Below are positions 630 through 6,146 of a DNA stretch of 38,249 bases, in pieces. The DNA lies in the NCBI GenBank assembly GCA_029862185.1, contig JAOTXX010000041.1:1-38249 (forward strand). Direction: 5' to 3'. The position numbers and the translations under genes were made by a program. Under the pieces are notes generated by a model. That model was given only the letters and a program-made list of their open reading frames with translations, was not told the origin of the DNA and did not search any database. Source of the stretch: Myxococcales bacterium (GTDB taxonomy: Bacteria > Myxococcota_A > Polyangia > Polyangiales > Houyiibacteriaceae). Numbering within the stretch: position 1 is the stretch's first letter; each line of letters opens with the position of its first letter.

Positions 630-1279
630 ATGGATTCTCCTCGCAGTGCCATCACCTCGGCCCAGATGGCCTTGGCCACTGCTTCGATGCCGCAGTTCGC
701 ATCGATGTGTCGAATGGTATCATTTGGGAAAAGTTCGTCGATTTTCCCGTAAAATTCGGCAAGCTCGACCTGCATTTCGTCGACTTCGTACAGCTCAGGG
801 CTGCCGGATCGCGTCTCGCGACGGCTTGCTGCAGCGTTGGGGTCGACATCGAGCACGAGCGTCAGGTCGGGACGCTTGGCGTGCCGGTTGAGCTCGCGCA
901 CCCAGCTGGAAATGTCTTCACCGCCTCCCCCGCTAACCGTTTGGTAGGCGACGGAGGAATGGTCGTAGCGATCGCAGATGACCGTGACCCCATCGGTCAA
1001 GTTGGGAATGACCTCGGCCTCGAGGTGATCGAGACGGTCGGCCGCAAACAAGGTGGCCATGGTCGCCCAATTGAACGGGCGGGCCCCTTGGCGGCCCGAG
1101 ACGACTACTCGCCCCGTCAAGACCTGACGAATGAGGACGCCGATCGGCCCATCGCTTGGCTCGCGCGTGGTGCGAACGGGAAGTCCTCTCTCGGTGAGGC
1201 GGTCTGCCAGGATCGAGCACTGCGTCGTCGTACCCGATCCGTCGATGCCTTCGATCACGATGAAGTGGCCGTCGATCAC
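626..1279 (-). CDS. tmk: Thymidylate (dTMP) kinase, variant P-loop
   Basis: A 217-residue cytoplasmic protein of the usual dTMP kinase length, which makes dTDP from dTMP and ATP. Residues 8-18 form the P-loop region (VIEGIDGSGTT), followed by REPSDGP (the family's REPGGT region) and CDRYDHSSVAYQ (the family's DRY/F..S motif that binds dTMP). The oddity is residue 17: the expected P-loop lysine (GSGKTT) is threonine, codon ACG at 1229-1231. The rest of the fold signature is intact, so this is likely a lineage variant and not a dead enzyme, but that is inference. It overlaps the PEGA gene upstream and the PDZ lipoprotein downstream by four bases each, so the three are probably co-translated. 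Confidence 0.88.
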   Translation of the reverse strand: MIDGHFIVIEGIDGSGTTTQCSILADRLTERGLPVRTTREPSDGPIGVLIRQVLTGRVVVSGRQGARPFNWATMATLFAADRLDHLEAEVIPNLTDGVTVICDRYDHSSVAYQTVSGGGGEDISSWVRELNRHAKRPDLTLVLDVDPNAAASRRETRSGSPELYEVDEMQVELAEFYGKIDELFPNDTIRHIDANCGIEAVAKAIWAEVMALRGESI

Positions 1280-3156
1280 GAGCCCTCCTTCGGACTACCG
1301 AACTTGAAGGTCGCGCCGAACTGCCCATAGACGAGGGAGTCCGCGTGGCCGCCTCCGAAGATGTCCCCAAGCACCCGCCGCCTGTCTCCAGCGACGATAC
1401 CTTCGACTTCAATCCACACGTTCCACTTCTTGGTTACGACGATTTCCAGTGAGCCGCCTACCCGGGCGCGCACCACATTCTGACGGGAAGAGCCTGGCAC
1501 GGAGATGTTGCTATTGCGACCGCTGAAGTCCCATCGATCGCTGTTGAAGTCCCCGGCGATCCAAACCGAAAAGGCGCCATGAGGCGGGAAGTGCACGCTG
1601 AAAATCGCGTCCAGACTGATGAAAAAATTGTTGGTCGGACGCCTGTCGCCGCTGAGGTTCCGCCGCGCGGGCCCGATACCGCCGCCAATCTGGAGATCTC
1701 CGCCTACTGAGAAGTTTGGGGATGCGCGCCATCCCGCTTTGGTGCTCAGCGTGAAATCCGTGAGACGCCCGAAGGTTTGAACCGAAATGCCGACGTCGAG
1801 GAAATCCGTCAGCCCGGCGCGCAAGCCAACCCAAGCCAACCAGGGCCAACCCGTCGAGAAATCGAGGGTGGCCACCCCCGGCGGAGTGGGCGCACCGGCG
1901 CGGGTGACGGTGTTGCGCAGCAGATCCTTGCGCGTCCCCGTCTCGTCCCGCTCGGCCGACGCGACGGGGATGACTGCCGGGGTGAGAATCACCTGAATCA
2001 GACGGACGCGCGGCGACTTCTGAAGGCGAATCTGCTCGACGTGGTTCCCGTGGCCCTCGGCTCGGACTTCCAGTTGATGGATTCCTGCAGCTAGATCCCC
2101 TTCCCAAGGCACGGGGCCACGCAGCTCGCCGTCGACGTAGAGCTCCGCATCGGACACGTTGGCCTCAACTCGAACCGGGACGCCGAGGGCGTTGAGCTCG
2201 GCGTAGACCTCGCAGTTGCGGCTCGGCCCAACGGAACAGGTACGGCGCACCTCGCGATAGCCCGGCGCTCGCACGACCACGGAGTGGGTACCGAGGTCGG
2301 CAGGCTCGATGGTGATCGGCGGGTTACCGTATTCCTCTCCGTCGATCGTCACGATCGCGTCCGGAACGCTCGCGCGAACGAGGATGCGGGGGATCTCCGT
2401 GCTCGCGGTGGTGAATCTCAGTGAAACCACACGCTCGCGCCCGGCGATCACCGTCACGGTTTGCGTGACGCTCTCGTATCCACTCGCCTCGGCGGAGACG
2501 ATATGCTCGCCAGGCGAGAGGCCACCCTTGGCAGCAGGGGCGACCCCGATCTCGATCCCGTCGAGACGAATGATTGAACCCGGCACGTTCGCGATCACGC
2601 GGAGACTGCCGAGGTCGGGAGCAAGTCGGATCGTGGCGTCGACTGTCGTTCGCGCGTTCGGCTTGACGGTGACGACCTGGGAAAACGCTTGGTAACCCTC
2701 TCCGGGGCTCTTGATTTCGACGACGTGCTCGCCCTCTGTGAGGCCGTCGACGACCAGGGGCGTGCCCCCTCGTCGCTGTCCGTCGATGTAGACGGGTAAG
2801 CCCGTGACGTCGGCTGTAATCAAGAGCGAGCCGGTCTTCGCCGCTGAAGGCTGAAGTGCGACAGGGATGGTCATCACCTGCCCAGCAACCAGATCCACCC
2901 ATTTCGAGAAGGTCGCAAAGCCGCGCTTCCCCACCTGCACCAGGTGCCGCCCGGGCGTGAGCGTCTTTCGAAGTGGCACGTTGCCCGATGGCTCACCGTC
3001 GATCCGAATCGCCGCCCCCGAGCTCGCGTCGTCGCTCGCGGTGATCACGATGACGCCCGGAGACTCCTCCTGCGCCGCCGCCTCGGAAGAAACGATGAGT
3101 GAACCAAGCACGAACACGAGCCGCACGAACCCACCAACGCCAAGCAACCGTCGCAT
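1276..3156 (-). CDS. Exported five-PEGA-domain protein with probable C-terminal beta-barrel
   Basis: I place the start at 3156, not at the longer frame start (3285), because a GAGGG ribosome-binding site lies four bases upstream and the protein then opens with a classical signal peptide ending near AAAQ (residue 28). The mature 600-residue region carries five PEGA-type repeats at about 35-100, 108-180, 184-256, 258-325 and 327-395. Each has the pattern of a short beta-strand, V/I-x-I/V-DG, then P-L, then G-x-H-x-V. Residues about 430-620 are rich in alternating polar/aromatic strands and end in GATFKFG, which resembles an outer-membrane beta-barrel or porin-like domain. PEGA domains are surface or S-layer-like modules; a cell-envelope role is inferred. 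It is followed by tmk with a four-base overlap. The exact function is unknown. Confidence 0.75.
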   Translation of the reverse strand: MRRLLGVGGFVRLVFVLGSLIVSSEAAAQEESPGVIVITASDDASSGAAIRIDGEPSGNVPLRKTLTPGRHLVQVGKRGFATFSKWVDLVAGQVMTIPVALQPSAAKTGSLLITADVTGLPVYIDGQRRGGTPLVVDGLTEGEHVVEIKSPGEGYQAFSQVVTVKPNARTTVDATIRLAPDLGSLRVIANVPGSIIRLDGIEIGVAPAAKGGLSPGEHIVSAEASGYESVTQTVTVIAGRERVVSLRFTTASTEIPRILVRASVPDAIVTIDGEEYGNPPITIEPADLGTHSVVVRAPGYREVRRTCSVGPSRNCEVYAELNALGVPVRVEANVSDAELYVDGELRGPVPWEGDLAAGIHQLEVRAEGHGNHVEQIRLQKSPRVRLIQVILTPAVIPVASAERDETGTRKDLLRNTVTRAGAPTPPGVATLDFSTGWPWLAWVGLRAGLTDFLDVGISVQTFGRLTDFTLSTKAGWRASPNFSVGGDLQIGGGIGPARRNLSGDRRPTNNFFISLDAIFSVHFPPHGAFSVWIAGDFNSDRWDFSGRNSNISVPGSSRQNVVRARVGGSLEIVVTKKWNVWIEVEGIVAGDRRRVLGDIFGGGHADSLVYGQFGATFKFGSPKEGS

Positions 3157-3179
3157 AATCCCTCGGACGCACCGAAATA

Positions 3180-3200
3180 GGGTCGATTCATCGACGACCC
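3180..3200 (-). other. Stem-loop in the leader of the PEGA gene
   Basis: On the minus strand GGGTCG and CGACCC form a perfect six-base stem around a nine-base loop, followed by a short U-leaning run (TATTTC). It sits 24 bases upstream of the PEGA start and about 98 bases downstream of the GT51 gene stop. It could be a weak terminator or attenuator between the two genes, or just a symmetric operator. The T-run is too short for a confident terminator call. Confidence 0.3.
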
Positions 3201-3297
3201 AAGCGCCTCGAACGTGTTTACCCCCAGCGTTGGGGTCAGCCCAATAAATGACGGGTGGCGTCTGCGGTGAGGCGAGAATTTTCAAACACGGACACGG

Positions 3298-5661
3298 CTA
3301 GGGCTCTACGAATAGGCTCTCAAACGGATCGAGAGCCCCCGGATCGGGAAACTCGGCTGCGCCGAGCGGCGGGAGTATCCGCGGGGGCGGCAGGGGGTCT
3401 CCGTTCCGACGGAACCGGAGGTCCTCGAGCTCCGCCAGCCCGTACTCGAGCGCTTCGGGGCCGATCCGTTCACGCTTCGCCATGTGCTCGAGGAGCCGCC
3501 GTACCTTGCTCTTCATCGAGCGGCTGAGCGCGCCGCGCTCGTACGAAATGTGATAGCGCTTGGGCGATGGCAACATGCACGCGAGGAAGGCGGCCTCCGC
3601 AGGGCTTAGATCGATCGGATTCCGGCCGAAGTAGTAAGCCGCGGCATGCCTGAGCCCGTAAACAGCGGGGCCATACTCGATGACGTTGAGATAGAGCTCG
3701 AGGATCTCGTCCTTGTCGAGTGCGTTCTCGAGCCACCACGTGAGAATCACTTCTTGAACTTTGCGCGCGATGGTCTTTTCGCGCTGCAAGTAGAGGTTCT
3801 TGGCCAGCTGCATCGAAATCGTACTCGCGCCCACGACGTACCGGCCCTCTCGCAGATTCCGTACGAGCGCATCGCGGATCGCCCAGGGTGCAAACCCACC
3901 GTGCTCGTAGAACGCTCCGTCCTCGTGACTGATCGCCGCCGCGGTCATGAAGGGGCTGATGTCAGAGAACGCTACCCAGTTCGGGGTTCCGGGACCCGTG
4001 CGCATTTCGAACACGGTATCGTCCGGCTCGATCGCGCGGTGCCGGAACGGCCCCTGAAAGCGCTCGACGCGTACCCAACGGGGTGTTCTTTCAAACTGGC
4101 AGAGGTTTCGAACCCGAATCGAGAGCTCAGTAGCTTCGAGCTCTCTCGAGTCGAGAGAGGCATGCACCAGCGCGCTCCAACTGCCCGACCAATCGAAGCG
4201 AGCGAGTGAGCCGAGCACGTCGTCGGGGATCGCTCCGATCACGTCATTGCAATGTGTAGGTGGAAGCTTCGCAGTGAGGTCCACTCGGAAGTGCTCCGGG
4301 GTCCGTTCAAGCTCGCCGTCGATCAGCACAGCTACCTTGCCCATGCGGACCTCGCCCCGCTCGACTTGAAGGAGGCGCTCACCGGGGTACCAGCTGCCCT
4401 TCCCTTTGATATCCATGTTGATGTTGTCCACAGGCTCCGCTGCGATACGCTCGGAATTGAGCGCGAGGTCGCGCAGCCGTAGGCGCCCTTCGATGCTGAT
4501 CTGCTCGGGAGAGCTTGCGGCGAGCTCGAGCTTGGCGCTCAGGGTGCCTCCCTCGTCGTAGAAGGGGACCTCGGGAACAAGAGGTGCAATGACCGCGAGC
4601 GACATCCGGCGGAGCTCGATGCTTCCCTCGGCGCGTGCCTCGCTGGGCATGACGCTGAGGTCGACCCTCAAAGCCCCGTCATTGGAGGTCTGACCGCCGA
4701 CCACCAACCGGTACCAGCCGTTGCCTCCTCCGTTCAGCGCCCAGCCGAAGTCGCGGATTCGCTCGACGTGACCTGCCGGCGTTTTGCTTTCGATCTGAGC
4801 GCCGGAAACGTCCACGCGAGCATCCGGGGTCAAGCGTGCGAAAAGGCGCGCGCCGGTCGGAGAGGCAGCCAACCGGAGGGTCTCGGCCTCGGCCTCGGTA
4901 CCGCTTGGCGAGGCGCGGAGCTGGTTCAAAGCGTCTCGCAGCCGAGTTGCGAGAGCCCTTGGCTCCTCATTGCCGTTGCGAAGAGAGCGTACACTCGCAC
5001 CTTGGATCTCGAGCTCGCGAAGCTTCCACGCTCCGTCACTGCGCCTCAGTTCCAACTTGGTGGGTCCGATGCTTGCGTAGTCCGCGCTTTGCTCACCGAG
5101 CAGCGCGCCCCCGAAGCGCCCCAGCAACTCATCACCGTTCTTGCGCATGCTCACATCGCTCATCGATACGAGCTGCCCGTCTGCGTCGATCACACGAAGG
5201 GTCAAGTCGTCCAGAGCGTACGTTCTTCTCTTGCGATTGCTGCCGCTGGATGCCTGCGGAGATTCAGGATCGGGCCCTTGTTCTTGAACCAGCGCGATCG
5301 AGTCGCGGAACCCTTCGTGACTGAGGTCGAGGGTCACTTGGAGGCCGCGCGCAGAGACCGCGCGAACGGACCGCGCACCCTTCCAGATCGCGCCGAGGAG
5401 GCTCATTCGCGCCTCGATCTGTTCGATGCGCGCGATGAAGCCGCCGTGGCGACCTCGTAGATCGACACCGCGGAGCTCGACGCCGCCGAAGGACAAACTC
5501 GTTTCTTCGATCTGAGCATCGACGCCGAGGCGCGCCGCAATGAGGTCCGCAGCGCGCGCAGAAACGCGGGGCATGCCCCAGCTCCAAAGGCCAAGCACGA
5601 GTGCGCACGCGACGAAGGCCGCGACCACCCAAACGCGTCGCTCGCTGAGGAACCGCAGCAT
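3298..5661 (-). CDS. AsmA-like / GT51 peptidoglycan glycosyltransferase fusion
   Basis: A 787-residue protein with one N-terminal membrane anchor (residues about 10-29). Residues about 35-540 have the character of AsmA/TamB/DUF748 proteins: beta-rich, with repeated motifs such as SLSFGGVELRGVDL and GRLRLRDLAL. Residues about 555-735 are a complete GT51 transglycosylase domain: HEDGAFYEHGG with the catalytic glutamate at 580, GASTISMQLAKN at 611-622, RKVQEVIL at 633-640 and YLNVIEYGP with a following YFG. GT51 enzymes polymerise lipid II into glycan strands in the periplasm. There is no penicillin-binding transpeptidase domain, so it is like a monofunctional MtgA carried on an AsmA-like stalk. 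dtd lies 35 bases upstream on the same strand. The GT51 call is secure; the AsmA assignment is by pattern. Confidence 0.85.
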   Translation of the reverse strand: MLRFLSERRVWVVAAFVACALVLGLWSWGMPRVSARAADLIAARLGVDAQIEETSLSFGGVELRGVDLRGRHGGFIARIEQIEARMSLLGAIWKGARSVRAVSARGLQVTLDLSHEGFRDSIALVQEQGPDPESPQASSGSNRKRRTYALDDLTLRVIDADGQLVSMSDVSMRKNGDELLGRFGGALLGEQSADYASIGPTKLELRRSDGAWKLRELEIQGASVRSLRNGNEEPRALATRLRDALNQLRASPSGTEAEAETLRLAASPTGARLFARLTPDARVDVSGAQIESKTPAGHVERIRDFGWALNGGGNGWYRLVVGGQTSNDGALRVDLSVMPSEARAEGSIELRRMSLAVIAPLVPEVPFYDEGGTLSAKLELAASSPEQISIEGRLRLRDLALNSERIAAEPVDNINMDIKGKGSWYPGERLLQVERGEVRMGKVAVLIDGELERTPEHFRVDLTAKLPPTHCNDVIGAIPDDVLGSLARFDWSGSWSALVHASLDSRELEATELSIRVRNLCQFERTPRWVRVERFQGPFRHRAIEPDDTVFEMRTGPGTPNWVAFSDISPFMTAAAISHEDGAFYEHGGFAPWAIRDALVRNLREGRYVVGASTISMQLAKNLYLQREKTIARKVQEVILTWWLENALDKDEILELYLNVIEYGPAVYGLRHAAAYYFGRNPIDLSPAEAAFLACMLPSPKRYHISYERGALSRSMKSKVRRLLEHMAKRERIGPEALEYGLAELEDLRFRRNGDPLPPPRILPPLGAAEFPDPGALDPFESLFVEP

Positions 5662-5696: not shown

Positions 5697-6146
5697 CTAA
5701 TAAAGCTTGCGGCTGTCGATTTGGATCGTGACAGGGCCATCAACGCTGGATTGAACGACCATCATGGCCCGAAAGGTGCCCGTTTCGACCGGCAAGCCCT
5801 TGGCACGCAAACGTTGGACCAGCTCCAAGTAGAGGCGCTCCGCGTCTTCGGGGTCTGCCGCGCCATCGAACGAAGGGCGTCTGCCGCGCCGCACATCGCC
5901 AAAGAGCGTGAACTGGGAAACGACCAACACGGCGCCCCCGACATCGCCGACGGACAAAGACATGCGTCCATCGTCGTTGGGGAACACGCGAAGACCCGAA
6001 ATCTTTTCGGCGATGTATTGCACGTCCTTGGGCTCGTCTCCCTTCGCCGCGCCGAGATACACCAGCAGACCTCGCTCGATGCCCCCGACCCGCTCCCCGT
6101 CGACGGTGACGCTGGCTTCGTTGACCCGCTGAACGACGGCACGCAT
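5697..6146 (-). CDS. dtd: D-aminoacyl-tRNA deacylase
   Basis: A 149-residue protein matching Dtd in length and order of motifs. It opens MRAVVQRVNEASVTVDGE, has SQFTLFGD at about 77-84, and ends with GPVT at 137-140, the Gly-cisPro motif that excludes L-amino acids. Dtd hydrolyses D-aminoacyl-tRNAs in the cytoplasm and protects translation from D-amino acids. The usual asparagine of the NxGPVT motif is valine at residue 135, while the Gly-Pro itself is kept. It is divergent from coaE (65 bases between starts) and is the first gene of the minus-strand run leading to the GT51 fusion. Confidence 0.95.
   Translation of the reverse strand: MRAVVQRVNEASVTVDGERVGGIERGLLVYLGAAKGDEPKDVQYIAEKISGLRVFPNDDGRMSLSVGDVGGAVLVVSQFTLFGDVRRGRRPSFDGAADPEDAERLYLELVQRLRAKGLPVETGTFRAMMVVQSSVDGPVTIQIDSRKLY

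Follow-up and report, generated by a model that had tools for sequence, protein, structure and literature searches.

An AsmA-like beta-groove module joined to a GT51 peptidoglycan polymerase domain in Myxococcota and huge phages

A single open reading frame from a Myxococcales bacterium raises the question of what an AsmA-type groove and a peptidoglycan polymerase domain do together when they are encoded as one chain. The window, that is, the whole stretch of DNA that was analysed, comprises 38,249 nucleotides of contig JAOTXX010000041.1. The gene lies at 3298..5661 on the (-) strand, where 787 codons are open from an ATG start. Orthologues of the 787-residue product, 36-94% identical to it, were found at 14 loci in the genome_contigs set, all from Myxococcota or from uncultured records that cluster with them by sequence. 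Because many independent genomes carry the same architecture, an assembly artefact or gene-prediction error was ruled out as the source of the fusion.

Domain order of the fusion protein

Profile searches and structure prediction establish the order of parts as an N-terminal helix, a beta-groove module and a complete GT51 domain. The predicted membrane helix covers about residues 9-30 (5572..5637, (-) strand), as read from hydrophobicity, and in the predicted model residues 4-45 form a single long helix whose start is of low confidence. Positively charged residues precede this helix (MLRFLSERR), so the remainder of the protein is predicted to be periplasmic. A repeating beta-groove module of the AsmA/TamB/chorein-like type, about 475 residues long with 22 strands, occupies residues 47-519 (4105..5523, (-) strand), as judged from profiles, predicted fold and amphipathic strands. 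Family alignments mark a conserved junction at residues 471-560 (3982..4251, (-) strand), and the GT51 peptidoglycan glycosyltransferase domain extends over residues 560-727 (3481..3984, (-) strand). The chain ends in a tail that reads as proline-rich (3298..3480, (-) strand), in which the Pfam scan recognised no domain.

Residues 560-727 are matched by Pfam Transgly with an E-value of 2e-51 (174 bits against a curated cut-off of 27), and the domain aligns to the solved domains of PBP1A and MGT. The catalytic Glu580 and Glu637, which belong to the EDxxF..H and RKxxE motifs, are invariant in 44 of 44 diverse family members, bearing out the first-pass annotation of a complete GT51 domain. Both glutamates are retained in the aligned phage members as well. 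Such invariance of catalytic residues and motifs argues against a protein that is inactive as a polymerase and serves as a scaffold only, a reading in whose favour nothing was found and which is considered extremely improbable. The same annotation had seen no transpeptidase domain. None was detected in the Pfam scan, which does find one in PBP1A of the same genome, and the protein therefore does not qualify as a class A PBP. The GT51 domain is 40% identical to that of E. coli MtgA over 167 residues and 37% identical to that of PBP1A from its own genome. The score of the whole protein against the NCBIfam model of MtgA, TIGR02070, is 166.7 bits, under the cut-off of 182.65 bits. By these comparisons, the fusion carries an MtgA-like polymerase domain and is not an MtgA equivalog. 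Only two GT51 genes are present in this genome, the fusion gene being the sole monofunctional one and the other encoding the bifunctional PBP1A. In the full-length model, the GT51 core is of low confidence (pLDDT 31-39), and where the polymerase lies with respect to arm and membrane is therefore not readable from it.

The N-terminal part was identified by its relatives and by its fold. DUF748 matches residues 325-420 of the window protein with an E-value of 1e-10, yet its 40.7 bits stay below the Pfam cut-off of 50 bits, and a YdbH-like profile matches weakly (E 1e-4); the assignment from this one sequence alone is therefore weak. Profiling of 44 diverse homologues found DUF748 in 31 of them (E 0.01 or better, best 6e-21), and AsmA and YhdP in five each. 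Once these relatives are used, the assignment of the N-terminal part to the AsmA superfamily is firm at the level of sequence. In addition, the N-terminus of the family profile retrieves two other AsmA-like proteins encoded by this genome, with E-values of 1e-9 and 2e-8, one of which is a classical AsmA according to Pfam. It also retrieves long open reading frames in relatives, many of about 1260-1750 residues, and the one that was scanned matches TamB.

An AlphaFold model of residues 1-545 (pLDDT 79, pTM 0.72) places 22 strands between residues 47 and 519. The best solved match in a Foldseek search was the N-terminus of lipid-bound Atg2 (probability 1.00), and the top match by VIA-align was the bridge-like lipid-transfer protein LPD-3, with a Z-score of 12.8 over 306 residues. 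The next VIA-align score was 9.1, unrelated barrels reached 9.1 and below, Vps13 reached 8.3 and TamB 7.2. Thus the LPD-3 score stands clear of the beta-barrel background, whereas the Vps13 and TamB scores alone do not exceed it. Hydrophobic and polar residues alternate on the strand faces more than in shuffled sequences (10 of 5000), a signal also expected of any beta-sheet with one buried face. A chance similarity between beta-rich sequences was ruled out, since relatives match AsmA-type profiles independently and the LPD-3 score of 12.8 compares with a background of 9.1. The predicted structure is accordingly a repeating beta-groove and not an unrelated fold. With the 787-residue open frame and the Transgly match, it confirms the earlier reading of the gene as an AsmA-like protein fused to GT51.

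These structural matches speak for a route for lipid along the groove. Lipid II or its undecaprenyl tail would leave the inner membrane and travel up to about 10 nm to a GT51 domain near the existing sacculus, or spent carrier lipid would return the same way. Both LPD-3 and lipid-bound Atg2 point in that direction. Both domains, moreover, handle long lipids, and the fusion is kept across the phylum, in Bacteroidota-like contigs and in phages. A common fold, however, is no proof of function. GT51 enzymes normally act at the membrane, where the aromatic and hydrophobic stretch ILTWWLE of this domain could insert, and such a lipid slide is regarded as rather unlikely.

Length of the arm and its junction with the polymerase

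Placed side by side at 0.48 nm each, the 22 strands would give the arm a predicted span of about 10.6 nm. A typical Gram-negative periplasm is usually about 20 nm wide, i.e., the arm would cover roughly half of it. The number of residues before GT51 ranges from about 330 in short complete phage members up to 916 in the longest Myxococcota member. Considering both the span and the shrinkage to about 330 residues in phages, a full lipid bridge from the inner to the outer membrane is unlikely. Variation in arm length does not by itself indicate one fixed role, but together with the span it argues against a fixed bridge and favours an arm with a positioning or regulatory function, which may also hold lipid.

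The first-pass annotation had proposed that the chain links lipid transfer or envelope spanning to wall synthesis, and this link, as it was worded, found no support in the span and variable length of the arm. In its fuller form, the proposal is that phospholipids are carried from the inner to the outer membrane as by TamB, YhdP or YdbH, with GT51 coupling transport to wall growth. Membership of the N-terminal part in the AsmA superfamily speaks for it, whereas the short span, shorter still in phage members, speaks against it. Furthermore, the genome has a separate AsmA, a relative has a TamB-like protein, and GT51 occupies the C-terminus, the end at which TamB contacts TamA. Transport of this kind across the envelope is therefore judged very unlikely.

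Outside GT51 itself, the stretch that joins it to the arm ranks among the best conserved regions of the family. Cys471 and Cys521 co-occur in most of the family and are invariant in the aligned phage members. Such strong conservation, which also includes the motifs PFxH and TGPGTxxW, suggests that groove and enzyme meet at a defined interface.

The reading preferred here, at a probability of roughly 0.55 and based on sequence and predicted structure, is that the fusion is an inner-membrane-anchored, monofunctional MtgA-like lipid II polymerase with a groove arm that serves to position or regulate the enzyme and perhaps to hold polyprenyl lipids. The protein would be held in the inner membrane by its N-terminal helix, and the C-terminal GT51 domain would polymerise lipid II in the periplasm. 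The groove module would form an anchored arm by which the polymerase is placed and regulated, and polyprenyl or acyl chains may be shielded within it. Separate transpeptidases would carry out cross-linking. The role of the groove module would be comparable to that of UB2H, the regulatory domain located between the membrane helix and GT51 in PBP1B.

The protein resembles three known groups and differs from each. Like MtgA of E. coli and MGT of S. aureus, it has GT51 without a transpeptidase, one N-terminal membrane helix and the same motifs, but GT51 begins at residue 61 in E. coli MtgA and at residue 557 in the fusion, after the groove module. With the AsmA superfamily (AsmA, YdbH, YhdP and TamB; Pfam DUF748) it has in common the N-terminal helix and the repeating beta-groove, seen in both profile and fold matches. 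None of these proteins is known to end in an enzyme domain, whereas the fusion has a short groove and a GT51 polymerase domain at its C-terminus. Class A PBPs (PBP1A/1B) also combine GT51 with an inner-membrane anchor; the fusion, however, is without a transpeptidase, and a GT51 tree (SH-aLRT, quick search) separates its lineage from class A PBPs with a support of 99. In the same tree, E. coli MtgA lies on a long branch at the edge of the fusion lineage, with its placement unsure.

Occurrence in Myxococcota, Bacteroidota-like contigs and huge phages

A family-profile search of 140 sampled Myxococcota genomes gave a strong full-architecture match, defined as an E-value below 1e-90, in 83 of them (manual count from the table). 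The other 57 scored from about 1e-87 to 1e-46; a few of these, between 1e-76 and 1e-87, were assigned neither way, while many of the weakest are compatible with ordinary class A PBPs. Within the order to which the window belongs, G139 is the only sampled genome without a strong match. The fusion is thus conserved in close as well as distant relatives, and the absence from close relatives that would have told against it did not occur. At least two full-length groove-plus-GT51 paralogues per genome are found in G010, G064, G069, G128 and others, paralogy being frequent in Myxococcota.

No account of an AsmA/groove-GT51 fusion was found in the open-licence PMC literature searched for AsmA with glycosyltransferase and GT51, or for DUF748 with transglycosylase. 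The fusion defines a widespread class of predicted wall polymerases that combine GT51 and a bridge-like lipid-transfer fold in one covalent chain, and it would enlarge the counts of wall polymerases in Myxococcota, so far based on class A PBPs. For instance, three class A PBPs were counted in Myxococcus xanthus, and moenomycin still causes partial rounding of cells lacking all three (15.3%), an effect ascribed by the authors to nonspecific toxicity (PMC10475089). An uncounted GT51 of the fusion type is a candidate, testable alternative for this residual 15.3% rounding.

Searched for beyond the phylum, the fusion architecture was found in Bacteroidota-like contigs and in contigs of huge phages. 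It is encoded in 643 and 653 residues on MT836530.1 (L208) and MT836802.1 (L209), two records from human stool labelled 'Bacteriophage sp.'. The fusion genes there adjoin PotABCD-like, MsrA-like and efflux genes, which have a chromosomal look. These two records, the strongest INPHARED matches, were thus rejected as phages, and by gene content they are probably Bacteroidota-like. In a further record, L228 (MW495066.1 115479-121892, Microcystis phage MaAM05), glyS, gatD and GT51 stand side by side and look more bacterial than phage.

A profile scan of IMG/VR returned 70 loci, of which 44 were classed as groove-plus-GT51, on contigs of up to 619 kb. Loci encoding such a protein include L138, L141, L144, L146, L150, L157, L160, L167, L169 and L191. 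Some of the phage proteins show a clear groove match at their N-termini (L142 and L146, with 38-48 bits), others a weak one or none, and the groove of the shortest phage members is inferred from the common junction. The viral nature of these large contigs was examined through their terminases. A PHROG 2 terminase-type match was obtained in 15 of the 20 phage-contig records tested, and all nine ORFs tested from large viral contigs scored as terminase large subunits, so mis-binned bacterial DNA was rejected as their origin; Pfam Terminase_6N gave no match in the large viral contigs. Neighbouring genes on phage contigs encode, among others, an endolysin, a tail fibre protein and a DNA ligase.

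In the GT51 tree, the Myxococcota, Bacteroidota-like and phage forms make up a single lineage. Within it, 42 of the 44 phage copies cluster beside one Myxococcota sequence within the Myxococcota part (support 97), and phage contig L148 falls with a different Myxococcota set (96). The simplest reading of this tree is that phages acquired the gene from Myxococcota or related hosts. That huge phages carry the fusion suggests management of the host wall by building as well as by cutting, at least in some phages. A bolder proposal is that the polymerase works at a distance from the inner membrane, supplied by the groove with lipid-linked wall precursor, so that glycan synthesis takes place close to or within the sacculus, and that huge phages took this machine from Myxococcota and use it in infection; as a whole it is unlikely. 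Several of the IMG/VR loci also have common flanking genes of unassigned function beside the groove-plus-GT51 gene.

Gene neighbourhood

The fusion gene stands in a co-directional run with genes for a D-Tyr-tRNA deacylase, a PEGA-repeat protein, a thymidylate kinase and a PDZ-like protein. Its downstream neighbour (1276..3285, (-) strand) has five PEGA repeats (Pfam PEGA, E 4e-57) and a beta-rich C-terminus, with a probable signal-peptide start at about 3156. The PEGA gene adjoins the fusion gene in each of the ten same-genus-like loci whose sequence covers this position and is co-directional within a few kb of it in L129 and L130, but it was not found in the sequence stretches around the more distant loci L013, L127, L128, L131 and L132. 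The PEGA-repeat protein may be an outer-membrane protein and is a possible, candidate partner of the fusion protein. The arm could reach an outer-membrane partner, such as this neighbour, that activates the polymerase as LpoA and LpoB do PBP1A and PBP1B. The co-directional gene in the closest relatives and in two other loci favours such a partner, whereas the failure to find it in the stretches around the five distant loci does not, and the proposal is considered distinctly unlikely.

The beta-rich C-terminus of the PEGA-repeat neighbour ends in GATFKF. On the upstream side, the D-Tyr-tRNA deacylase gene (5697..6146, (-) strand; Pfam Tyr_Deacylase, E 9e-54) is kept as a neighbour in the closest relatives and is probably functionally unrelated to the fusion.
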